A stretch of 20,304 bases of DNA from Lachnospiraceae bacterium OF09-6 (GTDB lineage Bacteria > Bacillota > Clostridia > Lachnospirales > Lachnospiraceae). Position numbers and translations under genes: made by a program. Numbering within the stretch: the first letter of the stretch is position 1; each line of letters begins with the position of its first letter. Location of the stretch: the NCBI GenBank assembly GCA_003435055.1, contig QUMM01000040.1, forward strand, positions 1 to 20,304, in the 5' to 3' direction. The notes beneath the pieces are model-generated. The model was given only the letters and a program-made list of their open reading frames with translations, was not told the origin of the DNA and did no database searches. This document shows, piece by piece, positions 1-17,900 of this stretch.

Positions 1-234
1 ACGCATGCTTTTTATCCCATAGAGATACTGAATGAATGGTATCTTTATCAGCATGACGGGATCCATACTGGGACGACCGTTATCCGGACAGTATTTTTCT
101 TCAACCAGATCATAAATAAAGTTCCAATTGATTGCTTTATCAATCAATCGCAGCATATGGTTTTGAGGTACCATGTCATCCATGGAAAACATCATCATTT
201 GTTCTCTTTTTTTATCTGTATTTTTCGTCATCAT
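1..234 (-). CDS. IS1182-family transposase, N-terminal part (cut by window edge)
   Basis: This is the first 78 codons of a transposase that runs off the left edge of the window. The translation starts MMTKNTDKKREQMMMFSMDD and continues through NHMLRLIDKAINW, DLVEEKYCPDNGRPSMDPV and IQYLYGIKSMR. That pattern (a start near 'Mvp.nHllR.id', then 'y...GRPs.dPv.l.k...lqylyg') is the DUF772 N-terminal domain of IS1182/IS5-like DDE transposases. The catalytic DDE residues would lie outside the window, so intactness cannot be judged. Two adjacent ATG codons (232-234 and 229-231) are possible starts. A hairpin sits directly upstream at 242-278, a usual feature that keeps outside transcripts from expressing a transposase. 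The gene lies downstream of, and in the same direction as, the sugar operon. Confidence 0.85.
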   Translation of the reverse strand, partial: MMTKNTDKKREQMMMFSMDDMVPQNHMLRLIDKAINWNFIYDLVEEKYCPDNGRPSMDPVMLIKIPFIQYLYGIKSMR

Positions 235-241
235 AAAGAAC

Positions 242-278
242 ACCGCCCTTCTGATATTTATTATATCAGAAAAGCGGT
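242..278. other. Hairpin in the transposase leader
   Basis: The outer arms are ACCGC (242-246) and GCGGT (274-278). The inner arms are CTGATAT (251-257) and ATATCAG (263-269). The structure ends eight bases upstream of the transposase start. It could sequester the translation start region in read-through transcripts; that role is inferred from other insertion sequences. Confidence 0.5.
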
Positions 279-290
279 TCCAACAATAGC

Positions 291-314
291 AAAACCCTGC
301 AAAAGCAGGGCTTT
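291..314 (-). terminator. Probable terminator after the system 1 operon, or part of the IS end
   Basis: A CCCTGC/GCAGGG stem (295-300 with 305-310) is extended by AAA/TTT pairs across one mismatch, with an AAAA loop. Read on the minus strand the stem is followed by TTTTGCTATT, a short U-tract. It could end transcripts coming from the hydrolase gene. It is also close enough to the transposase to belong to the insertion-sequence end; the other IS end is outside the window. Confidence 0.5.
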
Positions 315-327
315 GTCTACAGTCTGA

Positions 328-354
328 CAGAAACATGATTTTATCATGCTTCTG
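328..354. other. Strong hairpin between the IS and the hydrolase gene
   Basis: A near-perfect 12-bp stem pairs 328-339 with 343-354 around a TTT loop, with one A-C mismatch. On the plus strand it is followed by CCTTTTTTATT, the form of an intrinsic terminator. No plus-strand gene lies upstream in the window, so it may be an old terminator, part of the IS terminal region, or an mRNA 3'-end stabiliser for the minus-strand operon. Confidence 0.45.
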
Positions 355-371
355 CCTTTTTTATTATTGTT

Positions 372-1805
372 TTATCCGTTTTCGTACCTGTCTTTCAGTT
401 TTTTCTCTGTCTGCCTGATAAGAATTTCACCATCTTCTTCCAATAACCATCCACTCTCTACCTGCTTTGATATATATGTTGTAAAACGATTCATGTAATC
501 CGGCACCGAAGTATAATGCTGATAAAATTCTTTTTCCGACATCCATTCGCAAAATCCGATGGCCTCTGTCTCTGGTCGATCACCGTTTGCTCTATATTTT
601 GCTACTGGAAGATCGAGAAACGGACTTCTTAGTCCTCCTTGTACATTTCCATACTGATCGTAGCGCAAATGTCCTTCCGAATCTTTTCGAAACAATTTTG
701 CCTCCTCCGGTACAATTCTATATTCTACCCAGATATGAAGCTTTTCTAATAAAGCGGTAATATAACATCTGAGCGGAAAACGATTCAGCTCCTGTCCCTT
801 CTCCAGTTCCAGCACAGGTGGTGTCCCACCTGCCTTTTTTATATCATTATTGCAGATGATAACCGGACATTCTATATCATAATGTGGCGCTCCGCCCACT
901 TCATAATACCGACATTTGTTTTGTTCTGTATTTTCATTTTCAGGAATATGATCTTTCACATCTCCTGCCTGAAAATTCTTGAACAATTCATAATCCCCTT
1001 CACTGGTGATTCCAAGATATGGCACATCTGTCTGAAATGCTTCCCGATAGCCAAAATGAAGTGGCAATGTATCTTGTCCGACCGGTCTGGAAAACTGTAC
1101 GCCAACCAAATTGATAAAACCGTCAAAAATCTTTTTCTTTCTTGTAAGCTCATAAAAATTCGCCAGGTAGGTATTCAAATATGCCCCACTTTGACTCTGT
1201 CCACTCAAATATAATCTTTTTATTCCAAATGATTTCAGTGGACTGTCTGCCCCATACCAGAGTGCTTCTGCTATTTGCGTCAGAATATCCCAGAATGCCC
1301 CTTCCTGCATTTGGACTTTTCCATTCTCTTCCACTTGCGGCCATTGCAGGCTCTCATACCGTTTTTCATCAAATAACTTTAATGCCTGTACATTCACTGG
1401 TTTGCTGGTAATACCCACATATGCATGTCCATTTTTCACGCACCATGCATAGATCCGCTGCCATAGGTCTTCAAAATCAAAATTATTTGTTGCATTTAGT
1501 ATGTCTACGTACACTCTGCCAGAAAACTGTTCGCTGCGCACTGGGCGCCGTACAAGAATGCGATTTTTGTAATAAGATGGTTGTTGTTCTATATCCAGCA
1601 GGTCTTTCTCTCTTTTATACACAGCAGCCAGCCCTGTCACAAAGAACTCTTCTTCTACATAACCATATTCTGCCAGATCCATTGGCACTCTACTATGTTT
1701 CATTGTTCCAAATGGAACAGAACATTCGGTAACAGGTACTGCCTCTCCAAAAGAGGCCATTGGCATTTCGTCATACCAGTCGTATACCTTTTTGCTTATA
1801 TTCAT
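372..1805 (-). CDS. Alpha/beta hydrolase domain protein (Abhydrolase_10-like)
   Basis: The product is a 477-residue protein with no signal peptide or membrane segment, so it should be cytoplasmic. It has the nucleophile elbow GQSQSG at residues 202-207, a candidate acid in TSEGDYEL (Glu269/Asp271) and a candidate His308 in GAPHYD. Near the C-terminus GGLRSPFLDLPVAKY (390-404) matches the 'GGxRxPxxDvPxAxY' block typical of the alpha/beta hydrolase domain family PF20091. Members of that family are poorly characterised; an esterase-type reaction is the expected chemistry, and the substrate is unknown. It is the last gene of the system 1 operon, nine bases after the URO-D-like gene. Its own ribosome-binding site is weak, which suggests translational coupling. 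Its location suggests that it removes an ester group from an imported compound; this is inference. Confidence 0.75.
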   Translation of the reverse strand: MNISKKVYDWYDEMPMASFGEAVPVTECSVPFGTMKHSRVPMDLAEYGYVEEEFFVTGLAAVYKREKDLLDIEQQPSYYKNRILVRRPVRSEQFSGRVYVDILNATNNFDFEDLWQRIYAWCVKNGHAYVGITSKPVNVQALKLFDEKRYESLQWPQVEENGKVQMQEGAFWDILTQIAEALWYGADSPLKSFGIKRLYLSGQSQSGAYLNTYLANFYELTRKKKIFDGFINLVGVQFSRPVGQDTLPLHFGYREAFQTDVPYLGITSEGDYELFKNFQAGDVKDHIPENENTEQNKCRYYEVGGAPHYDIECPVIICNNDIKKAGGTPPVLELEKGQELNRFPLRCYITALLEKLHIWVEYRIVPEEAKLFRKDSEGHLRYDQYGNVQGGLRSPFLDLPVAKYRANGDRPETEAIGFCEWMSEKEFYQHYTSVPDYMNRFTTYISKQVESGWLLEEDGEILIRQTEKKLKDRYENG

Positions 1806-1814
1806 CTTATTCGC

Positions 1815-2900
1815 CTATTTCCATTTTAATAATTTGTTTAAAATTTGTTTCTGAATTTCCGGATCACTTTCACTGATACACAGATAGATCCCTTTTGGAC
1901 TCATTGCATCCATAAAGTCATCCAGTTCAGATACTTGCAGATCAACTACTACACTTCTTCCAGCATCCTGGATCTTTTTAATCAACGGACACCACTGCAT
2001 AATTGGTATATTCAACCCCATTCCCTGTACCCACTGGATCGCCTGAATCTCATCGAGTTCCAATAAGATATCCAGATGCTTGGCCACACCTGCGCCATCC
2101 AGATGGAAAATGTTGTGTTTAAAAAGCGAAATCTCATCTTTAATATAAGGAAGCTCAAATTCATTGAAAAAGTCTTTTGAGATCATAGCACCAAAATCAC
2201 AGCTCGGAATATGCATTCCTTCATAAGATGGAATATTCATCCATGTTACAGATACTTGATTATGGTCCTTCAACATTTTGTCAAATTCACGCATTTGATC
2301 GTTAAACGATACTGTACATCTCTTTAACAATTTATCTACAAATTCCGGATCATCATATAAATCCAGGCACAAATTCTGGCTTCCCCTGAATCCAGCTGCC
2401 ACATCCATTCCCGAATGCATATCCGTATAGCCTACCATAAACTTATTTTTGCACTGGTCAAATGCACAGTTCATCAGCTCCATCATTTTTTTATAATATT
2501 TCGAATCTTTGCGGAAATAGATCTTATCCAGATCAGACTCATCTTCCACACATTCCTGAAGCCAGGATGTCACATCTCCAAATATCAGTTTCCCACCCAT
2601 AGTCGCCCCGTAATAATTCGGTCCCAGATTCGGGAAAAACATTGGGAATGTTTCGCCTAAGAAGCTGGAATGTTCCAAAGATTTTACAAACTTTCCAACC
2701 TGATATTCCACATCAAACCATCGCTCTTCCAGTGTATTCCATTTGGACAGATCATCTATGATATTATATTCTGCATTATGCGCTGAAAAACGGACCGGTA
2801 CACGATCAATGATTTCATGATCATACCAAGCATATACTCGTTTCATTGAATCTACAAAATCAGGTTTTGTTTCCAGTTCCATATCCCAAAATTTCGTCAT
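1815..2900 (-). CDS. URO-D/MtaA-superfamily protein, function unknown
   Basis: The product has 361 residues and resembles the uroporphyrinogen decarboxylase/cobamide methyltransferase fold. Supporting blocks are WYDHEIIDRVPVRF (25-38), a central region with MHSGMDVAAGFRGSQNLCLD (161-180), FHLDGAGVAKHLDILLELDE (265-284) and AIQWVQG (287-293). In MtaA/MtbA-type methyltransferases zinc is held by an HxC...C motif. Here the matching site reads His266-Leu-Asp268, with Cys341 at about the expected distance, so one Cys is replaced by Asp. No corrinoid protein gene is nearby. It is not the haem-pathway HemE: no haem genes surround it and its sequence blocks differ. It sits between the permease (12 bases upstream) and the hydrolase. 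A GGGGG ribosome-binding site lies eight bases before the ATG. A methyl-transfer or decarboxylase-like role on an imported carbohydrate is speculation. Confidence 0.75.
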   Translation of the reverse strand: MTKFWDMELETKPDFVDSMKRVYAWYDHEIIDRVPVRFSAHNAEYNIIDDLSKWNTLEERWFDVEYQVGKFVKSLEHSSFLGETFPMFFPNLGPNYYGATMGGKLIFGDVTSWLQECVEDESDLDKIYFRKDSKYYKKMMELMNCAFDQCKNKFMVGYTDMHSGMDVAAGFRGSQNLCLDLYDDPEFVDKLLKRCTVSFNDQMREFDKMLKDHNQVSVTWMNIPSYEGMHIPSCDFGAMISKDFFNEFELPYIKDEISLFKHNIFHLDGAGVAKHLDILLELDEIQAIQWVQGMGLNIPIMQWCPLIKKIQDAGRSVVVDLQVSELDDFMDAMSPKGIYLCISESDPEIQKQILNKLLKWK

Positions 2901-2912
2901 TTCTTTTTCCCC

Positions 2913-3860
2913 CTATGATGCTTTATTTTTGGTTCGAATATCCACTGCCACTGCTGCCAGTAACACTAGACCCTTTACCACTCTCTGCCAATATTCATTA
3001 ATATTCATCATCATCATTCCATTAGCCAGAACACCCATGAATATAACACCAATAATTACTTTTGTAATTTTTCCTTCACCACCACTAACGCTGACACCGC
3101 CTAATACTACTGCTGTGATGATATCCATCTCATATCCGTCACCGGCACTTGGCTGCCCGCTGTTTACTCTGGACATCAATATGAGTCCTGCAAGACTGCC
3201 AAAAAATCCTACTAGCATATAAATTTTATAAATTTCTTTTTTTACATTTACACCAGATAATCTTGCAGTCTCAGCATTTCCACCGATTCCATAAATTTTT
3301 CGACCAAATACCATTTTATTTAAAATAATGTAACCGATGATAAATACGATCACCATAATGATCATAGAAATCGGAATAATTCCAATACTTCCCTGTCCCA
3401 GAACTTTAAATGATTCCGGAAGTCCATAAACCGGCATTCCTCCTGTTACCAGATATACCGCACCCCTGAGACTGATCTGTGTTCCAAGTGTTGCAATCAT
3501 TGCCGGAATTTGTAGATAATTGATACAGGTTGCATTGATCACTCCAATGATCACTCCCAGCGCCAGTGATACTACAGATGCCAGAATGATTGGCTGCCCA
3601 TTGCTCATCATGAGCGCTGCAACTGCTGAAGTAAATCCAATTACGGAACCAATAGATAAGTCAATTCCTCCTGTTAAAATAACCATAGTCATACCAACCG
3701 AACAAATTCCAGTAATGGAAATCTGTCTTGCAATATTCGCAAAATTTTTTGCGGATAAAAAAGATTTTGTTACAACTGAAAAAAATATAATCATTGCAAT
3801 CAGGGTCAGAATGATTCCCATATCTCCCCAGTTTACTTTCTTTCCTTGTTCTTTCTTCAT
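2913..3860 (-). CDS. Ribose-type ABC sugar permease (system 1)
   Basis: This 315-residue, very hydrophobic protein is the membrane subunit of a CUT2 (ribose/xylose/galactose-type) importer. It shows the RbsC-family block VILTGGIDLSIGSVIGF (60-76) and the late 'GGEGKI..VIIGVIFMGVLANGM...YWQRVVKGLVLLAAV' region before the C-terminus. About eight to ten membrane helices are expected. In CUT2 systems two copies of one permease pair with the double-domain ATPase, which fits the single permease gene here. It follows the ATPase gene after 33 bases and has a GGAG-type ribosome-binding site. The substrate cannot be read from the permease. The binding protein, ATPase and permease order is the standard one for this family. 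Confidence 0.92.
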   Translation of the reverse strand: MKKEQGKKVNWGDMGIILTLIAMIIFFSVVTKSFLSAKNFANIARQISITGICSVGMTMVILTGGIDLSIGSVIGFTSAVAALMMSNGQPIILASVVSLALGVIIGVINATCINYLQIPAMIATLGTQISLRGAVYLVTGGMPVYGLPESFKVLGQGSIGIIPISMIIMVIVFIIGYIILNKMVFGRKIYGIGGNAETARLSGVNVKKEIYKIYMLVGFFGSLAGLILMSRVNSGQPSAGDGYEMDIITAVVLGGVSVSGGEGKITKVIIGVIFMGVLANGMMMMNINEYWQRVVKGLVLLAAVAVDIRTKNKAS

Positions 3861-3893
3861 GATGCTACTCCTGCCCTCCCTAAAATACTGTCA

Positions 3894-5381
3894 CTATCTT
3901 TCCACAGATGCCAGTTCCAGAATTTTCTTCTGGGTCATAGTGTCTCTGTCTACTTCTCCTGTGATTCTTCCTTCTGCCATAACCAGAATTCTGTCACTGA
4001 TGCCCATCAGTTCCGGAAGTTCTGAAGAAATGACAATAATGGTTTTTCCTTCTTTGGCCAGCATATTGATTAACTGATAGATTTCCTGTTTTGCTCCAAC
4101 ATCAATACCACGCGTTGGTTCATCAAAAATAATCACATCGCAGTCCATCAGCATCCATTTTGCAACAATGACTTTCTGCTGGTTTCCACCACTTAAATGA
4201 GAGATCAATTGTTCTCTTGTCGGTGTCTTTACTTTTAGTGTCACAATTTGCTGATCACATACTTCTGTCGCATTTTTATTATTGATCAATCTACTTTGTG
4301 CCAGTTCCGGATAATAGGAAAATAACAGATTATCTTTTACTGACATATTTAAAAATAATCCTAACTGCTTACGGTCTTCCGGTAGATAAGCAATCCCTTC
4401 TTTGATCGCATCCGCAGGAGAAGTGATATGAAGCAATTTTCCATTCAAATAAATTTCTCCCTTTTCCATCCGGTCTGCTCCAAAAATTGCTCTGGCGGTC
4501 TCTGTCCGACCGGCTCCTACCAGTCCGGCAATACCCAGACGTTCTCCTCTTCTGACCGAAAATGAAATATTTTTTAATAAAGAGGTGGTCACTCCTTTTA
4601 CTTCCAGAGATACTTCTCCCAGTTCTTTTTCCACCTGGGGATAAGTATCACTGATTTCTCTGTTTACCATTTCTTTTATCAATTCATCTTTGGTAGTATT
4701 AACTACAGCCTTAGTGGAAATATAATGTCCATCTCGAAAAACTGACACTTTATCGCAGATCTGAAAAATCTCTTCCATACGATGAGATATGTACAATACT
4801 GCCAATCCTTCGTCTTTCAGTTTTTTTACAATGTCAAACAAATATTTCAATTCATTATTAGTTAATGGTGCTGACGGTTCATCCATGATAATCACTTTTA
4901 CCGTTCTGGACAAAGACTTTGCAATCTCTACCAGCTGCTGATATCCAACCGTCAGATTCTTTACAAGTTCTGCTGGATCAATGGCTACGCCAAGATGCTC
5001 CAGAACTTCACCTGCATCTTTCTTCATTTTCTGATAATCGATAAATGGTCCCTTTTTCGGGAAACGATTATAATAAACATTTTCTGCAACTGTCAGATAT
5101 TTCAGGAGATTTAATTCCTGATAAACTGCCGTGATTCCCATTTCTATTGCTTTCTGAGGAGAATTATCTATCACTTCTTTTCCTTCAAAAAACATTTTGC
5201 CTTCTGTTGGTGAAATCGCACCTGTCATAATTTTGATCAGAGTAGATTTTCCTGCGCCATTTTCTCCTACAATTGCATGAACTTCTCCAGAATAGAAAGA
5301 AATAGAAACCTGATCAAGGGCTACAACTCCAGGATAACGTTTGGTAATCTCTTTTAATTCTAAAATCGGCTTCTTTTCCAT
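3894..5381 (-). CDS. Double-domain sugar ABC transporter ATPase (system 1)
   Basis: This 495-residue protein carries two ABC cassettes, as in RbsA, MglA and XylG. The first has Walker A GENGAGKST (39-47), YQEL as Q-loop (87-90), a signature region LTVGYQQ (143-149), Walker B IIMDEP (164-169) and an H-loop His200. The second has the degenerate Walker A GLVGAGRTE usual in this family, a clear LSGGNQQK signature and Walker B VIIFDEPTRGIDVG. The first signature (LTVGYQQ rather than LSxGxQQ) and the altered second P-loop are family-typical, so ATP hydrolysis is probably unequal between the sites. The length equals the usual family length of about 500. It follows the binding-protein gene after a hairpin-bearing gap and precedes the permease. 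Confidence 0.95.
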   Translation of the reverse strand: MEKKPILELKEITKRYPGVVALDQVSISFYSGEVHAIVGENGAGKSTLIKIMTGAISPTEGKMFFEGKEVIDNSPQKAIEMGITAVYQELNLLKYLTVAENVYYNRFPKKGPFIDYQKMKKDAGEVLEHLGVAIDPAELVKNLTVGYQQLVEIAKSLSRTVKVIIMDEPSAPLTNNELKYLFDIVKKLKDEGLAVLYISHRMEEIFQICDKVSVFRDGHYISTKAVVNTTKDELIKEMVNREISDTYPQVEKELGEVSLEVKGVTTSLLKNISFSVRRGERLGIAGLVGAGRTETARAIFGADRMEKGEIYLNGKLLHITSPADAIKEGIAYLPEDRKQLGLFLNMSVKDNLLFSYYPELAQSRLINNKNATEVCDQQIVTLKVKTPTREQLISHLSGGNQQKVIVAKWMLMDCDVIIFDEPTRGIDVGAKQEIYQLINMLAKEGKTIIVISSELPELMGISDRILVMAEGRITGEVDRDTMTQKKILELASVER

Positions 5382-5411
5382 AATAGTTCCTACCTGTTCC
5401 TTTCAGAAATA

Positions 5412-5437
5412 ATGGAGACCGCTTTCGCAGTCTCCAT
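5412..5437 (-). promoter_or_regulatory. Intercistronic hairpin between binding-protein and ATPase genes (system 1)
   Basis: ATGGAGAC (5412-5419) pairs with GTCTCCAT (5430-5437). The stem is topped by GC/GC pairs and a four-base loop, with a single C-A mismatch. Read on the minus strand it is followed only by TATTT, too weak for a full terminator. The probable role is partial attenuation or protection of the upstream binding-protein message, so that more binding protein than transporter is made. That role is known from other binding-protein operons and is inferred here. Confidence 0.65.
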
Positions 5438-5450
5438 CTTTTTCCCTGTT

Positions 5451-6431
5451 TTATTTCGCAATATCATAATCGGAGACATTTTCAATGGTTACTTGTTTCA
5501 TATCATATACAACCTGTTCTTCAATTGGTCCATTTGCCAGCACTTCTTCTACAATATCAAATACCTGATTTCCTTTTTCGCCTGGCTGAATATCTACCGT
5601 ACCTTTGTACATCGTATCTTCAGAAATCAGTTTCAGCGCTTCATCCAGTGCATCCAGACCTACGATACAAGTATTATCAGCAGTATGTTCTTTATGCTGG
5701 CTGCATGCTTCATATACACCAAGTGCGCTGGAATCGTTAATGCAAACATAAACACTAATTTCTGGATTTGCTGTTAAGGCAGTCTCTGCAATCTGATATC
5801 CTTCATCTGCATTTGCTGCATTCTGTTCGGATACAAATACGATTTCTTTATCTCCAGTATAAGTTTCTTCCAGACCAGCTTTTAATCCGTCTGCCCGGTC
5901 AATAACAGATTTGATCAGGTCATATCGTCCTACTGCTACTTCGATCTTTCCATCGTCATCCAGGATATCATCAATAGTACCGTCTTCTTCTTTTGCATTT
6001 AACCATTCCCCGGCGATCTGTCCACCCATACGTCCGTATTCTGTTTCATCAATACCGAAAAATGCATCAGATCCTTCTACTTCCTGATCTAGGGAAATTA
6101 CAGGGATTCCTGCTTCCTGTGCTTCTTTTACTGCATCTTTCGGTGCTTCCTGGTCAACCGGACTGATGATAATCGCATCTACTCCCTGTGAAATAAAATC
6201 CTGAATCTGATTAATATGTTTGGCAGGATCTGCTGCCGCATCTGCAACAATTAAATCAATTCCTCTTTCATTGGCAGCTTTTTTCATTCCATCTACAATG
6301 GATACAAAATAAGCATTTTCCATACTCTGTACGGTATATCCAATCTTTAATCCTTCGTCTGCAGATACCGTAGCCATCATTCCCCCAACCATTGTACAGA
6401 CCAATACTGCTGCTAACACTTTCTGTTTCAT
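5451..6431 (-). CDS. Secreted sugar-binding protein of ABC importer (Peripla_BP_4, system 1)
   Basis: This 326-residue protein belongs to the RbsB/Peripla_BP_4 family. It has an N-terminal signal peptide (MKQK, a hydrophobic stretch, then TVSA-DEG as a probable signal peptidase I site). The mature part starts LKIGYTVQSMENAYFVSIVDGM, the usual first strand and sugar-contacting loop, and later shows ISQGVDAIIISPVD and VDIQPGEKG blocks. The start is fixed by an AGGAGG ribosome-binding site a few bases upstream. There is no lipobox cysteine after the hydrophobic core, which is unusual for a Gram-positive importer. It is the first gene of the system 1 operon behind its own promoter and lies directly downstream of the three-component regulator. 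The ligand is not predictable by eye; a pentose or hexose is expected from the family. Confidence 0.93.
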   Translation of the reverse strand: MKQKVLAAVLVCTMVGGMMATVSADEGLKIGYTVQSMENAYFVSIVDGMKKAANERGIDLIVADAAADPAKHINQIQDFISQGVDAIIISPVDQEAPKDAVKEAQEAGIPVISLDQEVEGSDAFFGIDETEYGRMGGQIAGEWLNAKEEDGTIDDILDDDGKIEVAVGRYDLIKSVIDRADGLKAGLEETYTGDKEIVFVSEQNAANADEGYQIAETALTANPEISVYVCINDSSALGVYEACSQHKEHTADNTCIVGLDALDEALKLISEDTMYKGTVDIQPGEKGNQVFDIVEEVLANGPIEEQVVYDMKQVTIENVSDYDIAK

Positions 6432-6483
6432 TTTGAAATCCTCCTGTTCTTTATTCTGCCGCTCAGATGTTTTTCATGTCTAC

Positions 6484-6512
6484 ATTATATAAAATAGCCA
6501 TATTTCAAACAA
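6484..6512 (-). promoter_or_regulatory. Promoter of the system 1 transport operon
   Basis: Read on the minus strand, a -35 box TTGTTT (plus positions 6507-6512) and a perfect -10 box TATAAT (6484-6489) are separated by exactly 17 bases. Transcription would start near 6477, about 45 bases before the binding-protein start codon. The weak -35 fits a promoter that needs an activator, and the likely activator (the YesN-type regulator) is encoded just upstream. Confidence 0.65.
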
Positions 6513-6575
6513 TTCACTATTCTCCGAAAAACTTTTTGTTTTCTACAATCAGCATTGTTCTCATATGGCTTTTTT
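6491..6575. repeat. Inverted repeat flanking the -35 region of the system 1 promoter
   Basis: AAAATAGCCATAT at 6491-6503 recurs on the opposite strand at 6563-6575 as AAAAAAGCCATAT, 12 of 13 bases identical. The arm centres are about 72 bases apart, roughly seven helical turns. One arm lies in the promoter spacer and the other ends at the stop codon of the response-regulator gene. It could be a pair of regulator sites or chance in AT-rich DNA. Confidence 0.35.
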
Positions 6576-8081
6576 CTAAATTCTTATATTCTTCTTATAT
6601 TGTCCGGTAGTCACACCGGTATATTTTTTGAATAACACACTGAAATAAGATACATTCTCATATCCCACTCTCTGCGCTATTTCCTGAGTCGTATAATTAC
6701 TGTATAACAGCAATTTCTGTGCAGCTTCCATTCTTACATCAATCAGATAATCGGAAAAGTTCGTTCCTGTTTCTTCTAAAAATAGTTTGCTGAGATAATT
6801 AGCACTGATTCCCAGTTCTTTTGCAAGCTCTGAGATTCTCAAATCTGATTGCATATATCTCTCGTCCACATACTGTCTGGCTTTATATGCTACGGTTTTT
6901 CCGGAATTGTCCTGTTCTTCTCTTACTTCTTTTGCGGTCTCAACAGCTGCTTTTTCAAAGTTTTCCATGGCTTCATTCAGATTTTTGCAGGACAATACAT
7001 CCGTATACAATTTCTGAAAATACTTCTCATCTACTTCCAGTTTTTTTATTTTATTATGAAGTCCTTCATAAATAATACTCAGAGAATAGGCCATGTTTAA
7101 CAGGGAATTATTTCCGAAATTTCTCAGTCTTTCTTTGAGCTTTCTGATGCATTCCGGCACATATTCTACTTTTCCAAGGCTGATGGCATTCACAATATTA
7201 TGCAGCAACATTTTGTTCATCGCATTATTTTGATTCTCGTATTTTCGAATATCCTTTCTCTCCAACGTTCCACCAAACTCTTCACAGAACTGATACTCTC
7301 GCAGCTTCTTTATATCATCATAGGAATGATATAATTCTGAAGCCAGTGACACCTCACGGCCAATTAATACCGTTATTCTGCATCCGGTCTCATCCCATAA
7401 TCTCTTCCTGATTTCTTCCAGAAATTCTTCTCTTTTCTCTTTCAGCTCTTCTTTTGCGCAACATGCAGTCAACAGATGGGCCGCCTTAAAATCAATGGAA
7501 TAAAATCCTCGTTTCTGTACACATTCTGAAATAATCTTTTCCACATTTGGCAATTCATTTGCAATGCAGTCTGGTACTATTTCCAGCATATTCCAGTCCT
7601 GATTTGCCAAATCTGCAAACGCATCATCTAAGTCCTGTTCCTGACATTTGCCATGAATACATTGATTCAATACTTCTTTCCACTGTATTTTCAAGTATTT
7701 ATCCTGCTCCTGTAATCTGCCCTTAGCCTTATCCATCACTTCATTAAGCTGTTCCAGGTCTACAGGTTTTAACAGATAACCTACAGCTCCATATTGCAGT
7801 GCCTTTTTTACATAATTAAATTCCTCATAAGCCGTAAGTATCACTATCGGAAAATCTGGATTCTGCTTATGTATTTCTTTCAATACTTCCAAGCCGTCTT
7901 TCTTACTCATTCGGATATCTGTCAGTAAAATATCTGCATTCGTTTTTTTTATTCTGTCCATGACATATATTCCGTCATTCACTGCCGCAACAACAGATAT
8001 ATCCATTCCAGACCAGTCAATTCCCCTTGACAGTCCTTCCAGTAATATTTCATCATCTTCTGCAATGACTAATCTGTACAT
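6576..8081 (-). CDS. YesN-type response regulator with AraC DNA-binding domain
   Basis: This 501-residue cytoplasmic regulator begins with a receiver domain (about residues 1-120). The acidic pair Glu8/Asp9-Asp10, phospho-acceptor Asp55 in ILLTDIRM, Thr83 and Lys105 in LLKPVD are all present, so phosphorylation should work. A roughly 250-residue middle segment has no clear motif. The C-terminal 105 residues form an AraC-type double helix-turn-helix (ISELAKELGISANYLSKLF, then TTQEIAQRVGYENVSYFSVLF). It overlaps the kinase gene by 13 bases, so the two are probably translationally coupled. The nearest downstream promoter is that of the system 1 transporter operon, its most likely target. The length is normal for this family. 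Confidence 0.94.
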   Translation of the reverse strand: MYRLVIAEDDEILLEGLSRGIDWSGMDISVVAAVNDGIYVMDRIKKTNADILLTDIRMSKKDGLEVLKEIHKQNPDFPIVILTAYEEFNYVKKALQYGAVGYLLKPVDLEQLNEVMDKAKGRLQEQDKYLKIQWKEVLNQCIHGKCQEQDLDDAFADLANQDWNMLEIVPDCIANELPNVEKIISECVQKRGFYSIDFKAAHLLTACCAKEELKEKREEFLEEIRKRLWDETGCRITVLIGREVSLASELYHSYDDIKKLREYQFCEEFGGTLERKDIRKYENQNNAMNKMLLHNIVNAISLGKVEYVPECIRKLKERLRNFGNNSLLNMAYSLSIIYEGLHNKIKKLEVDEKYFQKLYTDVLSCKNLNEAMENFEKAAVETAKEVREEQDNSGKTVAYKARQYVDERYMQSDLRISELAKELGISANYLSKLFLEETGTNFSDYLIDVRMEAAQKLLLYSNYTTQEIAQRVGYENVSYFSVLFKKYTGVTTGQYKKNIRI

Positions 8082-9895
8082 GATTCCATCCCCATTTCGA
8101 TTCGGATTGTTAATTCTGTTCCCATATTTTTCTTACTTTCAATCAACATCTGATATCGTTCTTTAAAAAATAACCGAAGTCGTTCATCCACATTTACCAC
8201 GCCATAGCTGTCACGATTTTCCATTCTATGTTCCAAGGAAGCAGTCTGTAACTGTCGCAGTGTTTCTTTCTCCATTCCCACACCATTATCCTTTACTCTT
8301 AAAATTAATACATCATCCTGAAGGAAACACCATACAAAAATCATTCCACCATATTCCTTGGGTTTGATTCCATGATAAATGGCATTCTCCACCAGTGGCT
8401 GCAGAATCAGTTTTGGCAAAATAATCTTTCTCGCAGCCTCTTCCAGATAGATTTCATATTCCAACTTTGATCGATATCTCAGTTTCTGTATAACCAAATA
8501 GCTACTGACATTTTGGATTTCTTCATCTAGTGTGATCATATCATTTCCTCTATTCAGTCCTGTTTTGAAAAAGCTGGTAAGTGATTTTAACATCAGTTCT
8601 GCATCTTCCAGCTTTTTCATGCGGATCAACCACATCAGTGAATCCAGTGTATTATATAGGAAATGCGGATTAATCTGTGCATTTAACAGCATCAGTTCAT
8701 ATCCCCGCCGTATCTCCTGTTCTTCCACAATCTCATCCATCAGATTGTGAATATCTGTGACCATTTTATTAAACTGCGCACTTAACTCACCAATCTCATC
8801 ATTTGTTATTTTAGAAACTTCTACATCAAACTGTCCTTTCTGCAGTGCTTCCGCATTTTCCTTTAATTCCAGAATCGGTCTGGTTACATAATCCGCTATT
8901 CCTCTTGAAATGAAAAATACGATGATCAAAAGTGCCACTGTTAATAATCCGTATACAAGAATACTGATATATAATGTATGGAAAAAATCTTTGTCCGGAA
9001 TAGCATTCACCAGTATCCAGTTGTTCGCATTCAGTTTTTGATAACACAATTCATAGTTTTTATAATGTACCAGATCTTTATTTGGAAAATCATTTTCCCA
9101 ATAAGCGATCCCTTTTACACATTGCTGTGCTATCGGTAATTCTGTTGCTATCCCGCCTGTTCCAATTAAAGAAATTGTCTCACCCTCATATTTTTTTACT
9201 ACAGCATTCTCGATTTTCAGTTTGTTATAAGTACTGGTATTATACAAAAATGTTATCCCATTCCAGTTTGTTTCCCGATATAATATCTGGTCCACACAAG
9301 TCTCTACCAGCATTACTCCTAAAACCTTTCCCGTCATATGATCTTTGACCGGTTCTGCAACAGAAATAAAATGTTCCTGAAATGTATTTACTACTTTCGA
9401 CTTATTATACAATTCAATCCATGCCATATCAGACGACTCTGCAGCTGCATGGTACCATTCTTCTTTTACAAAGTTTTTGTCCTGAAATGACAGCGGACTG
9501 CTCTTATAAACATTTCCATTTCCCCCCAGAATATATACCTGAATGTGATCATCAAAATAAGATGCTTTTTTCATCAAAGCATTGCTGATCTCTATTTCCT
9601 GTTCATAATTTTCATTTTTTTCTTCTGACAATATATTCAAGATTTCTCTGTCATCTCCCACTGTCTGACAGATCTGCATGGTTTCTGTAAGAAGCTTATC
9701 CAGCTGCTGTGCATTTTTTTCCATAACCGCTATACTGTTCGCTTTTTTTGTACTAATCTGATCTCGAATCAGTACATACCCGAAAAATCCTTCCAAAATC
9801 AATATAGGAATCAGCATACTGATACACATATAATAAAAAAAACGGTCTTTTATTTTTTGTGGTTTCAATAATTTATCTATTCTCAACCTCTTCAT
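8069..9895 (-). CDS. YesM-type sensor histidine kinase
   Basis: This 608-residue membrane kinase has a first helix at about 19-42, an extracytoplasmic region of about 260 residues (Cache-like by layout) and a second helix at about 308-332. Next come a HAMP region (to about 385, including PILELKENAEALQKGQFDVEV) and the His_kinase domain with phospho-acceptor His411 in the NAQINPHFLYN block. The ATPase domain shows the N box LVENAIYHG (501-509) and the G box VKDNGVGM. This is the LytS/YesM class that normally pairs with YesN-type regulators, encoded here immediately downstream. The gene begins inside the end of the sensor gene (23-base overlap), with an AAGG ribosome-binding site in that gene. 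Its extracytoplasmic part probably contacts the anchored sugar-binding sensor rather than sugar directly; this is inferred from XylFII-LytS. Confidence 0.94.
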   Translation of the reverse strand: MKRLRIDKLLKPQKIKDRFFYYMCISMLIPILILEGFFGYVLIRDQISTKKANSIAVMEKNAQQLDKLLTETMQICQTVGDDREILNILSEEKNENYEQEIEISNALMKKASYFDDHIQVYILGGNGNVYKSSPLSFQDKNFVKEEWYHAAAESSDMAWIELYNKSKVVNTFQEHFISVAEPVKDHMTGKVLGVMLVETCVDQILYRETNWNGITFLYNTSTYNKLKIENAVVKKYEGETISLIGTGGIATELPIAQQCVKGIAYWENDFPNKDLVHYKNYELCYQKLNANNWILVNAIPDKDFFHTLYISILVYGLLTVALLIIVFFISRGIADYVTRPILELKENAEALQKGQFDVEVSKITNDEIGELSAQFNKMVTDIHNLMDEIVEEQEIRRGYELMLLNAQINPHFLYNTLDSLMWLIRMKKLEDAELMLKSLTSFFKTGLNRGNDMITLDEEIQNVSSYLVIQKLRYRSKLEYEIYLEEAARKIILPKLILQPLVENAIYHGIKPKEYGGMIFVWCFLQDDVLILRVKDNGVGMEKETLRQLQTASLEHRMENRDSYGVVNVDERLRLFFKERYQMLIESKKNMGTELTIRIEMGMESCTD

Positions 9896-10817
9896 ATTTG
9901 ACTACCTTAAATTCAAGACTCCCTTTCACATTACTACTTTTTCCTTCCAGATCATTCATAATTCGATCCGTCAGTTCTGTTCCGGCATCTGTATCCACCT
10001 CTATGATTGCTTCTATTTTTCCTGTCTGAACTGCTTTTTCTGTATCTTGTGTTCCACCAATGGCTACAACCGGAATTTGCAGGTTTAATGTTTCCAGGGC
10101 TGCAATAGCACCCATCGCTGTATCATCATCATAAGCCATAATTGCATCAATCTGTTCTTTTTCGTCAGCCAGATAAGATACTACAGCATTGTAAGTATCA
10201 ATTCGTTTATCCAGATTTCGCATGACATACCCGATTTCCAGATTATCATATTCACAAAGCTTTTTTCTAAATCCAATTCCCTTCTTTTTCGTCTCGGAAA
10301 AGGCATTGTCCGACTGTAATTCCAGAATTCTTCCTTCTTTTGTTCCCATGTATTCTGCCATTAATTCTGCCGCCACACTTCCCTGCCCATAAGAATCTGT
10401 CTGAATTTTCCAATAAATATTCTTCTCATCCAATCCGAATACTTCTCCACAAAATAAAATTATTTTTGTTTCCTGTGCTGCCTTTTCCAGTATCTCTTTT
10501 AATCCAACACTGTTTCCAGGCATAACCACTAAATATCGAGGCTGATAATTCATCAACTCCTCAATATCTTTTTTCTGCTGCTGAATACTTCCACCTGATG
10601 TTCTCCAGACTGTACTTATTTTTTCATTCTCACATTCCTGCAATATATTCTTTAAAGCAATGGTATTCCATGCATTATTCACATCTGGGAAAGAAATTCC
10701 CACCATAATACTTTCCTTCGTTTCTTTATTCTGATAATTCTTCAGAACTCCAAACAGCACACAGCATACTATAATCATAACTATAATAATAATTTCATTT
10801 TGCAGCTTTTTCTTCAT
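9873..10817 (-). CDS. Membrane-anchored sugar-binding sensor protein (XylFII-like)
   Basis: This 314-residue protein has a single N-terminal membrane helix (about residues 8-26, IIIIVMIIVCCVLFG) followed by a Peripla_BP_4 sugar-binding domain facing outside. The domain starts MVGISFPDVNNAWNTIALKN and contains QPRYLVVMPGNSVG, LQSDNAFSETKKKGIGFRK and AIMAYDDDTAMGAIAALE, the usual landmarks of ribose/galactofuranose-type binding proteins. There is no cleavage site or lipobox, so it should stay anchored rather than shuttle sugar. It overlaps the histidine kinase gene by 23 bases. In Clostridium beijerinckii a protein of this design (XylFII) binds xylose and signals through LytS to YesN, and the gene order here is the same. 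The ligand in this case is unknown. A GAGAGG ribosome-binding site supports the start. Confidence 0.9.
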   Translation of the reverse strand: MKKKLQNEIIIIVMIIVCCVLFGVLKNYQNKETKESIMVGISFPDVNNAWNTIALKNILQECENEKISTVWRTSGGSIQQQKKDIEELMNYQPRYLVVMPGNSVGLKEILEKAAQETKIILFCGEVFGLDEKNIYWKIQTDSYGQGSVAAELMAEYMGTKEGRILELQSDNAFSETKKKGIGFRKKLCEYDNLEIGYVMRNLDKRIDTYNAVVSYLADEKEQIDAIMAYDDDTAMGAIAALETLNLQIPVVAIGGTQDTEKAVQTGKIEAIIEVDTDAGTELTDRIMNDLEGKSSNVKGSLEFKVVKYEEVENR

Positions 10818-10852
10818 GATATCCTCTCACAATTTGATTCTTCTTATTTTCA

Positions 10853-10880
10853 ATTTTACATCATACGCTTCTACTTTAAA
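10853..10880 (-). promoter_or_regulatory. Possible promoter of the three-component regulator operon
   Basis: On the minus strand TTTAAA (10875-10880) and TAAAAT (10853-10858) are separated by 16 bases. The predicted start lies about 30 bases before the sensor start codon. The match is moderate only. It sits back to back with the better EamA promoter in the same 153-base divergent gap. Confidence 0.4.
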
Positions 10881-10907
10881 ATGCATATTTTATTTTTTGT
10901 CTGGGTA

Positions 10908-10936
10908 TTGCCTGTCATTGGCTGCCGTAGTATACT
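10908..10936 (+). promoter_or_regulatory. Promoter of the EamA transporter gene
   Basis: TTGCCT (10908-10913) and TATACT (10931-10936) are separated by exactly 17 bases, a good housekeeping-type promoter. Transcription would start near 10943 and give a leader of under 30 bases before the ATG at 10971. This rules out the longer reading frame that begins at 10800. Confidence 0.7.
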
Positions 10937-10970
10937 GACATCTGGAAATGATATAGAAAGTGTGGTAAAT

Positions 10971-11849
10971 ATGTCTGAAACAAACAATAACAATTATGTA
11001 AAAGGTATCCTGTTCATCCTTCTGGCCGCTGTTGGCTTCGGATTTATGAGCTTCTTTGTACGCCTGTCGGGCGATCTGCCTTCTGTGGAAAAGAGCTTTT
11101 TCCGTAACCTAGTAGCTGCGATCTTCGCCGCCGGTGTCCTGATTCGTAACAAAGTTCCTCTTACTATAAAAAAAGAATGCCGTTTTCCTTTATTTATTCG
11201 CTGTGCGTTCGGAACCACCGGCATTCTCTGTAACTTTTATGCTATTGACCATCTTCTGCTGGCCAATGCAAATATTTTAAATAAGCTGTCTCCGTTTTTT
11301 GCTGTAATCTTTTCTTATTTTATCTTAAAAGAAAAAATCAAACCGCTGCAGATCCTTTGCCTGATCCTGGCATTCTTCGGATGTCTGTGCATTGTAAAAC
11401 CGGGACTCACAAACGTATCTGTATTTCCGGCTCTGATGGGCGTCTTTGGTGGCCTGTGTGCAGGCCTGGCCTATACCATGGTGCGTAAAATGGGAATGCA
11501 GGGTGTAAAAGGACCTGTGATTGTATTTTACTTTTCTGCCTTTTCCACATTGATTGTAATTCCATGGATCGCCACCCATTTTGTAATGCCGACTCCTAAA
11601 CAGATTCTGATCCTGATTGGAGCAGGACTGGGAGCCGCCTGCGGACAGTTCTCCATCACCGCTGCCTATAAATGTGCACCGGCACGGGAAATCTCGATCT
11701 ACGATTACAGCCAGATTATCTTCGCTGCGATTCTGGGATTCCTGTTCTTTGGTGAGATCCCGGATGTACTGAGTTTTGTGGGTTATATATTTATCATTGG
11801 AGCATCCCTGTTTATGTTCCTGTATAATAAGCGCAAGGTTTCAATATAG
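10971..11849 (+). CDS. EamA/DMT-family transporter
   Basis: This 292-residue membrane protein belongs to the drug/metabolite transporter superfamily and has two EamA repeats and about ten helices. The first repeat begins GILFILLAAVGFGFMSFFV; the second has GVFGGLCAGLAYTMVRKM. The end of the second repeat, with ISIYDYSQIIFAAILGFLFFGEIPD, is the classic EamA 'y...v.aallg.l.fgE.p' pattern. The frame is open back to 10800, but that start would lie inside the opposite-strand sensor gene and upstream of the promoter. The start MSETNNNNYVKG is therefore chosen, although its ribosome-binding site is weak. The substrate is unknown; relatives export amino acids, nucleobases or other metabolites. It is the only plus-strand gene, and its codon choice looks richer in C/G-ending codons (CTG, GGC, ATC) than its neighbours. 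It is not obviously part of either sugar system. Confidence 0.9.
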   Translation: MSETNNNNYVKGILFILLAAVGFGFMSFFVRLSGDLPSVEKSFFRNLVAAIFAAGVLIRNKVPLTIKKECRFPLFIRCAFGTTGILCNFYAIDHLLLANANILNKLSPFFAVIFSYFILKEKIKPLQILCLILAFFGCLCIVKPGLTNVSVFPALMGVFGGLCAGLAYTMVRKMGMQGVKGPVIVFYFSAFSTLIVIPWIATHFVMPTPKQILILIGAGLGAACGQFSITAAYKCAPAREISIYDYSQIIFAAILGFLFFGEIPDVLSFVGYIFIIGASLFMFLYNKRKVSI

Positions 11850-11869
11850 TAGTGAATGACGATATAAAA

Positions 11870-11905
11870 AGGCTGTGATACTAACCTCTAATAGTATTAC
11901 AGCCT
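11870..11905. terminator. Bidirectional intrinsic terminator
   Basis: A 13-bp stem (11870-11882 with 11893-11905, one G-T pair) has AGGCTGT and ACAGCCT as its outer arms. On the plus strand it is followed by CTTTTCTT, ending the EamA transcript. On the minus strand it is followed by TTTTTATAT, ending the system 2 operon after the kinase gene. Confidence 0.85.
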
Positions 11906-11912
11906 CTTTTCT

Positions 11913-13409
11913 TCAGGCAAGAATTTTCTCATCTTCCATAATATATTTCATTCCTGAATAAATTCGTTTGTAAATCATATATTTTTTTTCGCATAATGTA
12001 ACCATTTCCTTATCTGGTTCAAACCTTTCTTCCACAGTAATGGTATTGTCTGCCATTCCTGAATAGTCTCCATGACAGCTCTCACAAAAAGCTGCCAGCA
12101 ACGCTACTCCAAAAGCGGCTCCAATCATACCTCCCATTCTTTCAATAGGGCAATTCAATACATTTGCCATAATTTGCATCCAAACTCTACTATTAGCTCC
12201 TCCGCCAACGACTTTTATGCTTTTCTGATCCGTCAATTGCAGGTTCATTTTTTCTGCCAGTTCTTTTATTCCAAAACACATTCCTTCCAACAGCGAATAA
12301 GTCAAATCTATAGGATCGTTTTCGAGACTCATTCCAATAAATGCACCTCTTAAAAGTGGATCAGCATAAATTGTTTTTTCACCGGTCATATGCGGATAGA
12401 AAATTGTCATATTAGATCGTTCTTTTTTCAAATCCACAATTTGATCTATATACGAAAAATCTTCTTTTCCAAGTATCTTTTTTGTCCACCAGGATAACGT
12501 ACTACCATTAGACTGTACTGTTCCCTGAACCAAGCCATAATATTTGGTATTATCAAAAGAAAACAGTATTCGTTTCCCATACTCACTGCTTCTCTCTTGT
12601 TCATCCGGTATTACCAATACACCAGAAGTTCCCAGTGAAATCAGTGGATATCCCATAACAAGACATCCTGTTGATAATGCCATTGCTGAATTATCTCCCG
12701 TTCCTGCAAGAACTTTTACGCCCTCCGGTATTCCCGTTAATTCCATAATATTTTTTTTCACAGTTCCGGTAATCTCAGCACTTCCAAATATTTGCGGATA
12801 AACATCTTCTGATAGCCCCAGCAACTTTCGCATCTCTTCTGACCATTTTCTATTCTTTATTTCGTAAAGGCATGATGTTGAGGCCTCACAATAATCTGTA
12901 CTATACGTTCCGGTCAGGCAATATACCAAATAGTCTGGCCCTATCAAAAATTTTTTTATTTTTTTGTAATTTTCTGGTTCATATTTTTTCAGCCAATATA
13001 AATTCGCTGCAGGACTTCCTGTTGATATCGTTCTTGACAAATACTCTCCATCCTGAAACTGAGCAATTTTTTCTTTCATCTGAGGGATCAATTCTTTTGT
13101 TCGGAGATCATTCCACATCATGGCTGGACGTATGCAATTACCGTCCTTATCAAGAATAGTCAGTGTATGCATCTGTCCTGTGACACCTATACTATGTAAT
13201 TGATTTACATTCTGGTTTTCTAATACTTTTTTTATTCCGTTAATCATGCCGGCAAACCAATACTTCTGATCAATTTCATACCATCCATCTTCTTTCACTG
13301 ATAAGTGATATTCTTCTCTCACCTGTGATAATACATGATATTCTTCATCAATTAACACTATTTTCATTGCCGATGTACCAAGATCAATCCCAAGATATAA
13401 TCGTTTCAT
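11913..13409 (-). CDS. FGGY-family sugar kinase, xylulokinase-like
   Basis: This 498-residue kinase shows the N-terminal phosphate-binding block LYLGIDLGTSAMK, GVTGQMHTLTILD (about 75-87), MMWNDLRT (about 97-104) and the catalytic Asp239 in GTGDNSAMAL. A second ATP-site block SLGTSGVLVI follows. GQMH, WND and the GDN motif are the xylulokinase (XylB) pattern within the FGGY family, so a ketopentose or related ketose is the likely substrate. A Thr follows GQMH where XylB often has Gly. An in-frame GTG nine bases upstream (13418) is possible, but the ATG matches the family start. It follows the aldolase gene by 32 bases and ends the operon. Next to an aldolase of the ketose-bisphosphate type, the product may be a ketose phosphate cleaved by that enzyme rather than xylulose 5-phosphate for the pentose pathway; this is inference. 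Confidence 0.88.
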   Translation of the reverse strand: MKRLYLGIDLGTSAMKIVLIDEEYHVLSQVREEYHLSVKEDGWYEIDQKYWFAGMINGIKKVLENQNVNQLHSIGVTGQMHTLTILDKDGNCIRPAMMWNDLRTKELIPQMKEKIAQFQDGEYLSRTISTGSPAANLYWLKKYEPENYKKIKKFLIGPDYLVYCLTGTYSTDYCEASTSCLYEIKNRKWSEEMRKLLGLSEDVYPQIFGSAEITGTVKKNIMELTGIPEGVKVLAGTGDNSAMALSTGCLVMGYPLISLGTSGVLVIPDEQERSSEYGKRILFSFDNTKYYGLVQGTVQSNGSTLSWWTKKILGKEDFSYIDQIVDLKKERSNMTIFYPHMTGEKTIYADPLLRGAFIGMSLENDPIDLTYSLLEGMCFGIKELAEKMNLQLTDQKSIKVVGGGANSRVWMQIMANVLNCPIERMGGMIGAAFGVALLAAFCESCHGDYSGMADNTITVEERFEPDKEMVTLCEKKYMIYKRIYSGMKYIMEDEKILA

Positions 13410-13441
13410 ACTCAACACCCAACATTTTTATTTGCGAACCT

Positions 13442-14278
13442 CTAATGTTCATTAATCATCATTACCAGTTCTTTTGCTTTATTAGCCACATGATTTACAG
13501 CATCTATACTTAAATGTATTACATCATGTTCATTATGATTTGTTTCATATGCTTCTCCAAAGGTTCCGATAAATTCTTTACGCAAATCCGAGCCATAATT
13601 GATTTTAATCAATCCATGTTTTTTTGCTTCCCATATAATTTCTTTTGAAATCCCGGATCCGCCATGCAACACCAATGGCACTTTCGATATCTGATTGATT
13701 TTTTCCAACAACGGAATATCTATCTGAGGATTCAGACAAAGTCCATGTACATTTCCCACCGAAACAGCCAGTAAATCGCATTCTGTTTTGCTTACATATT
13801 CTGCAACCATGTCCGGATCTGTTTTGCACTCCCCTTCATTTACAATGTCTTCTTCTTTTCCACGAAGTGCCCCCAGCTCTACCTCTACCGGAATTCCATA
13901 AAAATGGCAATATTCTGCTGCTCTTTTTGACTCACGAATGTTTTCTTCAAAAGGAAGATGTGACATATCTATCATAATAGATGTAAAACCAGCATCTACA
14001 CACGCCTTTACATCTTCAAATGACTTTCCGTGATCCAAATGCAGTCCAATCGGTATTTCCGATTTTTTCACTGCATCCTTCGCAATCATTGCAATTACAT
14101 ACGGGTTAGATAGCCTTAAATTGTTTGACGATATCTGAATATATCCTGGAAGATTGGCTTCCATTAATCCATTTGCAATTGCGTATGTCATTTCCAGATT
14201 CGTTGTGTTAAAAGCCGGAAGCACATACCCATTCTTCTTTGCATATGCTACTAAATCAAACCCATTCACTAATTTCAT
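13442..14278 (-). CDS. Class II ketose-bisphosphate-type aldolase (FbaA/KbaY/GatY family)
   Basis: This 278-residue zinc aldolase has catalytic Asp82 and zinc ligand His83 in GLHLDHG, VEVELGALRG (131-140, with Glu134), zinc ligands His178 (GNVHG) and His205 (LHGGSG), and the phosphate-binding INYGSDLR. Family members cleave ketose phosphates to dihydroxyacetone phosphate plus an aldehyde. It is more like tagatose-bisphosphate/sugar-alcohol aldolases than a housekeeping FBP aldolase by context (inference). Two starts are possible: the ATG at 14282-14284 lies right against the GGAG (14286-14289), while the ATG at 14276-14278 is seven bases away, so the latter is chosen. It sits between the permease and the kinase, which suggests that the imported sugar is phosphorylated and then cleaved here. 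Confidence 0.88.
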   Translation of the reverse strand: MKLVNGFDLVAYAKKNGYVLPAFNTTNLEMTYAIANGLMEANLPGYIQISSNNLRLSNPYVIAMIAKDAVKKSEIPIGLHLDHGKSFEDVKACVDAGFTSIMIDMSHLPFEENIRESKRAAEYCHFYGIPVEVELGALRGKEEDIVNEGECKTDPDMVAEYVSKTECDLLAVSVGNVHGLCLNPQIDIPLLEKINQISKVPLVLHGGSGISKEIIWEAKKHGLIKINYGSDLRKEFIGTFGEAYETNHNEHDVIHLSIDAVNHVANKAKELVMMINEH

Positions 14279-14300
14279 TGCCATTCTCCTTTTTTAACTT

Positions 14301-15263: not shown

Positions 15264-15282
15264 TTCTTCCACCTCTGTTCTT

Positions 15283-16770: not shown

Positions 16771-16793
16771 TCTTACTCATCCTCATCCAAAGA

Positions 16794-16828: not shown

Positions 16829-16881
16829 GTTTTTATTTTTCAACACTGCAGAGACTCCGGTTTCCTGTATCTGTATTCTCC

Positions 16882-17862: not shown

Positions 17863-17900
17863 TTGTAAATTCCTCCCTTTTTTATATAAATTTTTAGGTT

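Follow-up and report, generated by a model that had tools for sequence, protein, structure and literature searches.

A URO-D-fold protein family linked to sugar importers in diverse bacteria and its possible role in the demethylation of methylated sugars

We analyzed a stretch of 20,304 nucleotides from Lachnospiraceae bacterium OF09-6 (GenBank assembly GCA_003435055.1, contig QUMM01000040.1, positions 1 to 20,304; hereafter, the window) in which a ribose-type (CUT2) sugar importer is followed, in a single minus-strand series, by the gene for a protein with the uroporphyrinogen decarboxylase (URO-D) fold, here denoted URDL, and by the gene for a hydrolase of the PF20091 family (Table 1). The importer includes all three of its characteristic parts, namely a Peripla_BP_4 binding protein, a two-domain ATPase and a BPD_transp_2 permease, and the operon reaches upstream to a sensor binding protein, a histidine kinase and an AraC-type regulator. 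The gaps between the consecutive genes for the binding protein, ATPase, permease, URDL and hydrolase are 69, 33, 12 and 9 bases, and the shortness of the last two suggests that URDL and the hydrolase are expressed in one transcript with the importer. These observations confirm the preliminary description of the locus, which was made from the sequence alone, with respect to the gene types, their coordinates and close spacing, and extend it by the regulatory half of the operon and by the finding that the resemblance of URDL to URO-D is under the Pfam threshold. The pattern scan detected 13 terminator-like sites in window 1-12000, compared to 6.9 expected. Naming the imported sugar from the binding protein was rejected because all the NCBIfam sugar models listed score far below their cut-offs.

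Table 1. Genes and other features of the importer operon and its downstream boundary in the window
Feature	Coordinates	Strand	Evidence or remark
Transposase gene start (PF05598)	1-234	-	Directly after the terminator-like stems of the operon
Two terminator-like stem-loops 3' of the hydrolase gene	242..315	-	Pattern scan
PF20091 (Abhydrolase_10) serine hydrolase, 477 amino acids	372..1805	-	Pfam score 330.1 bits, cut-off 23
URO-D-fold protein URDL, 361 amino acids	1815..2900	-	H266-x-D268-G269 where MtaA-type proteins have HxCG
CUT2 permease (BPD_transp_2)	2913..3860	-	Domain scan
CUT2 double ATPase	3894..5381	-	Domain scan
Secreted sugar-binding protein (Peripla_BP_4)	5451..6431	-	Domain scan
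Response regulator with AraC-type DNA-binding domain	6576..8081	-	Domain scan; position kept in relatives
Membrane histidine kinase (His_kinase, HAMP)	8069..9895	-	Domain scan
Sensor-type sugar-binding protein (Peripla_BP_4)	9873..10817	-	23-base overlap with the kinase gene

URDL represents an uncharacterized branch of the known URO-D superfamily. Its predicted structural model is confident, and the URO-D-type TIM barrel seen in it spans the entire chain. Membership in the Pfam URO-D family (PF01208) was rejected because URDL scores 11.3 bits, below the cut-off of 23.9; the best score among the seven URDL homologs scanned, 21.6 bits, is also below this value, and the identity with the uroporphyrinogen decarboxylase HemE is 11%. 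At an E-value of 0.001 or less, the URDL family includes 1,584 proteins, most of them without a name. The characteristic motif Cys is replaced with Asp (D268) in all 98 aligned URDL sequences, so that H-x-D takes the place of H-x-C. In MtaA, zinc is bound by the Cys of the HxC motif and by a second, C-terminal Cys; in URDL, the position that we take to be the counterpart of the latter, C341, is occupied by Cys in 74 of the 98 sequences and by Trp in 18. Given these two features, URDL was rejected as a zinc methyltransferase of the MtaA/CmuA type, and the label 'MtaA-like' that it was given in the preliminary description holds for the fold and fails for the motif. Judging by the conservation of C234 (88 of 98 sequences), URDL may possess a metal site of a different make-up, or else it could function without any metal; numerous Asp, Glu and His residues are invariant in the alignment. 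Sequence searches of the PDB with URDL and with the hydrolase, as single sequences and as profiles, retrieved nothing relevant.

The scan for URDL, with one genome per species, yielded 121 loci, of which the best 80 were kept (loci and genomes are designated by L and G numbers, respectively). These loci come from Bacillota, Bacteroidota, Verrucomicrobiota, Acidobacteriota, Chloroflexota, Spirochaetota and other phyla. The URDL profile matches all 80 loci, and L003 was additionally compared by tblastn; the neighbors were counted in 75 of these loci and the window (76 altogether), the anchor open reading frame (ORF) being uncalled in L003, L027, L036, L040 and L042. The loci are often short, with three genes on each side in 48 of the 76, and a missing neighbor may lie off the contig; the neighbor clusters were named from one scanned representative, not from every member. 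A sugar-transport membrane protein (a member of a BPD_transp_2, CUT1 permease, MFS Sugar_tr or RhaT cluster) is encoded within three genes of URDL, on the same strand, in 40 of the 76 loci including the window, and is adjacent to URDL in 28. These loci belong to Bacillota, Bacteroidota, Verrucomicrobiota/Kiritimatiellota, Spirochaetota, Chloroflexota and Synergistaceae; the acidobacterial URDL loci contain no such protein within three genes. The binding-protein cluster was excluded from this count because it mixes in LacI-type regulators (6/48 by a strict regular expression and more by eye). Visual inspection placed LacI-type regulators beside URDL or close to it in L014, L015, L023, L031, L046 and L047, from Spirochaetes and Acidobacteria; in several loci, such a regulator adjoins URDL in place of a transporter.

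The linkage is best defined in Clostridia, where the block consisting of the sensor, kinase, regulator, binding protein, ATPase, permease and URDL is kept in L001, L003, L005, L007 and L009. URDL directly follows the CUT2 permease in 8 of the 9 Clostridial loci compared, the ninth, L011, having a different type of importer. The secreted binding protein from the window is 65-78% identical to those in the five loci with the complete block, compared to just 27-37% for the sensor binding protein, which suggests that the same ligand is imported across these loci. In the Faecalicatena orotica locus, L007, the genes after URDL encode a rhamnulokinase (over the TIGR02627 cut-off and under that of PRK10640) and an L-rhamnose isomerase (over the PRK01076 cut-off and just under that of TIGR01748); thus, the imported ligand probably yields L-rhamnose or a close analog.

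Elsewhere, the sugar genes next to URDL are of various kinds. The gene preceding URDL encodes RhaT in L008 and, by clustering, in L029, an MFS sugar transporter is found among the neighbors in 8 loci, genes of the AraA, ribulokinase and AraD types are located near URDL in other loci, and those of the GH95, GH127 and GH36 types in some. Methylthioribose was rejected as a substrate because the pertinent neighbor in L062 falls under both MtnB cut-offs and over the cut-off of an L-ribulose-5-phosphate 4-epimerase subfamily. A separate arrangement is shared by five loci from Verrucomicrobiota (L065, L071, L073, L077 and L080), where URDL is directly followed by the gene for a protein of 469-518 amino acids with no Pfam match (L073 scanned) and, in 4 of the 5, by one for a protein of about 950-1000 amino acids, likewise with no Pfam match (L077 scanned).

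In some relatives, URDL is also associated with components of corrinoid-dependent methyl transfer. Corrinoid proteins are encoded immediately adjacent to URDL in L054, L059, L072 and L076; in L022, MtaB comes after URDL and is itself succeeded by a B12-binding protein that occupies two frames, by RACo and by CobW; and RACo is the seventh called gene ahead of URDL in L011 and the second one behind it in L063. For 37 of the 80 loci, a choice that favored longer contigs and taxonomic spread, we searched the genome for RACo, B12-binding, MtaB and PF20091 proteins. RACo was identified in 32 of these genomes, B12-binding_2 in 35 (a count that includes MetH-sized proteins) and MtaB in 9.

The co-occurrence with RACo was compared to the background in samples of related genomes, for which the taxon labels were inferred. 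In the family of G016, a metagenome-assembled genome (MAG) from Akkermansiaceae, RACo is present in 6 of the 117 genomes, specifically, in all three URDL-positive ones (one of which, G386, is a divergent match at 236.8 bits) and in 3 of the 114 others (Fisher p 8e-5; Fisher values here and below ignore kinship). Of the 150 genomes from the order to which the Acidobacteriaceae MAG G020 belongs, 13 contain RACo (12 over the cut-off), and G020, the sole genome with URDL, is among the 13. For the Bacteroidetes MAG G013, the comparison was made at the class level and for RACo, not URDL; the only genome with RACo among 295 is G013 itself. Among the 7 Bacteroidota genomes with URDL, RACo was found in G008, G010, G013, G017 and G018 and not in G012 or G021.

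Corrinoid systems are also encoded away from URDL. In G020, the contig with URDL also carries, at a distance of about 28-33 kb, a cluster of corrinoid protein, MtaB and RACo genes, and in two Bacteroidota genomes with URDL after RhaT, G008 and G021, a PF01208 protein and a corrinoid protein are encoded beside a regulator that is LacI-type by eye. In the relative G001, a corrinoid protein adjoins a methyltetrahydrofolate:corrinoid methyltransferase (L160, over the cut-off), and two pairs of similar appearance were noticed by eye (L161 and L167); thus, corrinoid partners exist in the genome of G001. Two further observations concern the corrinoid systems as such. A DUF1638 (PF07796) protein is encoded directly beside RACo in L130:9431-10168 and is possibly a corrinoid-system component; the protein in L128:8083-8823 is alike by eye only. 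In the acidobacterial genome G022 (L129:3414-11583), five URO-D-like proteins (by phmmer) are clustered with a corrinoid protein and RACo.

The best explanation of these associations, which we advance tentatively, is that URDL acts as a methyltransferase of the corrinoid-dependent kind and removes methyl groups from imported O-methylated L-sugars, with the hydrolase as an add-on. Under this scenario, the sensor-controlled CUT2 importer would take up an O-methylated L-sugar of the rhamnose, arabinose or fucose type, and URDL would move the ether methyl onto Co(I) in a corrinoid protein whose gene lies outside the operon, elsewhere in the genome, with H266 and D268 possibly protonating the leaving sugar oxygen in an acid/base role. 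RACo would keep the corrinoid protein active, a second methyltransferase would hand the methyl on, probably to tetrahydrofolate, and the freed sugar would enter an isomerase/kinase route; the hydrolase of the window could take an acyl group off the same or a co-occurring sugar. On a broader scale, and with slightly more reserve, URDL may be considered a cross-phylum family of oxygen-independent, corrinoid-dependent O-demethylases of methylated sugars that lack the usual zinc motif.

Several lines of evidence weigh against this scenario. No recognized sugar-transport membrane protein is encoded within three genes of URDL in 36 of the 76 loci, and the variation of sugar genes between loci makes one substrate for the whole family unlikely. 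Corrinoid parts (B12 protein or RACo) occur within seven genes of URDL on the same strand in only 7 of the 76 loci; corrinoid or RACo clusters were found in none of the Lachnospiraceae-type URDL loci; and the window proteins scanned include none that was recognized as RACo, a corrinoid protein or a second methyltransferase. RACo was not found in 5 of the 37 URDL genomes, including G012 (4.9 Mb) and G021 (6.6 Mb), and, conversely, genomes with RACo and without URDL are present in the background samples (3/114, 12/149 and 172/296). In the Lachnospiraceae sample, where the URDL alignment has matches at E <= 1e-10 in 26 of the 299 genomes, just 3 of them close (the loci L098-L127, derived from these matches, were left out of the neighborhood analysis), RACo is encoded in 175 genomes; at this background, its presence in 3 of 3 is meaningless (p 0.2), and RACo co-occurrence was rejected as evidence in this sample. 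Furthermore, genomes with URDL and RACo may simply share anoxic, methanol-rich niches.

Such an ecological link is part of the main rival explanation, under which URDL is a sugar enzyme other than a methyltransferase, its TIM barrel being re-used to isomerize, dehydrate or decarboxylate an L-sugar or a sugar acid. The far greater frequency of sugar-transport neighbors compared to corrinoid ones, the loss of H-x-C together with the many invariant Asp, Glu and His residues, which fit sugar acid/base chemistry, and the separate position of the family under the PF01208 cut-off are all compatible with this possibility. However, the corrinoid proteins directly adjacent to URDL in four loci, the MtaB-corrinoid-RACo set in L022, the co-occurrence of RACo with URDL in groups where RACo is rare and the kinase and isomerase already present beside URDL in L007 speak against it; we regard this explanation as somewhat unlikely.

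Proteins of the PF01208 cluster are encoded within three genes of URDL, on the same strand, in 18 of the 76 loci. This context, along with the presence of MtaB in 9 of the 37 genomes and the position of URDL ahead of MtaB in L022, could indicate that the PF01208 neighbor or MtaB is the substrate-specific enzyme of a corrinoid system in which URDL serves as the second methyltransferase or in an accessory role. Such a role appears improbable, considering that in the 8 Clostridial loci where URDL directly follows the CUT2 permease there is no recognized methyltransferase partner, and that G001 owns a methyltetrahydrofolate:corrinoid methyltransferase. The PF01208-cluster neighbors themselves, located in sugar loci, show another unusual form of the URO-D motif: in Chloroflexota (L050, L052, L059, L061, L072, L076 and other loci), they have HSDG or HTDG instead of HxCG, and a conserved His is aligned with the second Cys of 4ay7.

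The hydrolase clearly belongs to PF20091 and has an alpha/beta-hydrolase fold. In the 57-row alignment, the likely catalytic residues are the nucleophile S204 in GQSQS and H308, both invariant, and the acid E269 (or D271), E269 being nearly invariant, a conservation pattern consistent with an intact Ser-acid-His triad. The AlphaFold2 (AF2) model has a pLDDT of 93.1, and the Foldseek matches are alpha/beta-hydrolase esterases, with low TM-scores of 0.18-0.33 by query length among the 50 matches listed. In 4 of the 8 regions fetched around PF20091 genes (L092, L094, L096 and L097, from Lachnospiraceae-sample genomes and a Treponema), an apiosidase-like glycosidase is encoded nearby (by Pfam, the candidate having been scanned in these four only); in L096, the hydrolase is just a fragment and the glycosidase is two called ORFs away, and in L094, a split transketolase and an FGGY kinase are also found near PF20091, a gene set that resembles apiose catabolism. 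These neighbors may hint at the function of PF20091, a family on which the literature search, with most subscription journals outside its reach, found no publications.

The preliminary description had cast URDL and the PF20091 hydrolase as a joint pathway, possibly for an ester- or methyl-modified sugar. The neighborhood and genome searches contradict the first part of this proposal, and a conserved pair was rejected. No PF20091 relative was found in the 80 URDL loci, by phmmer on called ORFs or by tblastn and profile search in six frames of 1.25 Mb; PF20091 is absent from 36 of the 37 URDL genomes and, in the remaining one, lies on a different contig from URDL; and within the Lachnospiraceae sample, it is present in only 6 of 299 genomes. 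The pair probably occurs in one more species, with a URDL homolog (P0003, 70% identity) and a hydrolase homolog (P0125, 51%), both with a longest contig of 14,202 bases. Because the two genes are rarely linked in other genomes, the pair is not a general pathway, and the hydrolase appears to be a local addition to the operon of the window. As for the modified sugar, the methyl half of the idea gains from the sugar neighbors, some corrinoid neighbors and the RACo co-occurrence, and the ester half fares poorly: the slot after URDL in the orthologous operons is occupied by unrelated hydrolases, a GDSL esterase in L001 and a creatininase-type amidohydrolase in L003, which fits a variable slot, perhaps for acyl-group removal in a de-blocking step, and proves nothing.

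It is improbable that the operon is a plain rhamnose- or arabinose-type importer with two unrelated passengers, the hydrolase coming from an apiose or pectin route and joined by chance, a possibility with which the rarity of PF20091 in URDL genomes, its apiosidase-like, transketolase and FGGY kinase neighbors elsewhere and the transposase gene that begins right after the operon would agree, but URDL, which follows the CUT2 importer in 8 of the 9 Clostridial loci, is thus no passenger, and the gaps of 12 and 9 bases suggest a single transcript.

Comparison with known systems places the operon among importers of a familiar type. With three importer and three regulatory parts, it resembles the CUT2 ribose- and rhamnose-type importers that are controlled by binding-protein, kinase and AraC-type sensing; unlike in typical operons of this kind, URDL follows the permease, in the window and in relatives. 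URDL differs from HemE by its low sequence identity, its sugar-transport context and its score under the PF01208 cut-off, and from the Methanosarcina mazei methylcobalamin:coenzyme M methyltransferase (MtaA type; PDB 4ay7/4ay8) by the invariant Asp at the position of the motif Cys. It shares the URO-D fold and, in some relatives, nearby corrinoid proteins or RACo with the corrinoid methyltransferase I enzymes MtvB, OdmB, VdmB and CdmB of the UroD superfamily, a likeness of fold and context rather than of compared sequences or structures; unlike the loci of the MtvB/CdmB type, the window contains no recognized corrinoid gene, and the neighbors of URDL are sugar importers and sugar genes rather than genes for aromatic or haloalkane compounds. 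According to the accessible part of the report on CdmB, this protein is a corrinoid methyltransferase I with human UroD as the nearest fold and needs no zinc (PMC13222342), a property with which the lack of the H-x-C zinc motif in URDL would agree.

Also in the window, a second CUT2 operon occupies positions 11913-20202 on the minus strand and encodes a 2-hydroxyacid dehydrogenase, a zinc alcohol dehydrogenase, a binding protein, an ATPase, a permease, a class II aldolase that passes the PRK07998 cut-off and an FGGY kinase resembling XylB that narrowly misses its own, probably another polyol or ketose route. The alcohol dehydrogenase gene of this operon (17901-18913, minus strand) is split by a frameshift or sequencing error into overlapping frames, with ADH_N in 18425-18913 and ADH_zinc_N in 17901-18485.

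Apart from URDL, the parts of the operon, namely importer, regulators and hydrolase, are of known kinds; the context of URDL was not found described. The literature search, with most subscription journals beyond its reach, retrieved no description of the URDL family or of corrinoid sugar demethylation, and URDL in a sugar-importer context was not found in the accessible parts of the sources, including PMC10418091, PMC12915777 and PMC13222342. The sugar demethylation that was found in the literature is oxidative and based on cytochrome P450: as described in the accessible part of one report, a P450 demethylates 6-O-methyl-D-galactose in marine bacteria (PMC10033563). The role proposed here for URDL would similarly consist in the demethylation of methoxy sugars, with the difference that the monooxygenase reaction produces formaldehyde (PMC10033563), whereas the corrinoid route would be independent of oxygen and would extend a familiar type of system to a new class of substrates.

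If the proposed role is correct, it would give a function to the family of 1,584 proteins that are mostly without names. Methylated sugars occur in plant pectin (rhamnogalacturonan-II) and in algal and bacterial glycans. Methylated sugars of the rhamnose, arabinose and fucose types freed from plant, algal and microbial glycans would then be used by anaerobes, with both the sugar and the methyl group metabolized, which would explain how these organisms exploit such compounds and would join glycan breakdown to one-carbon metabolism.

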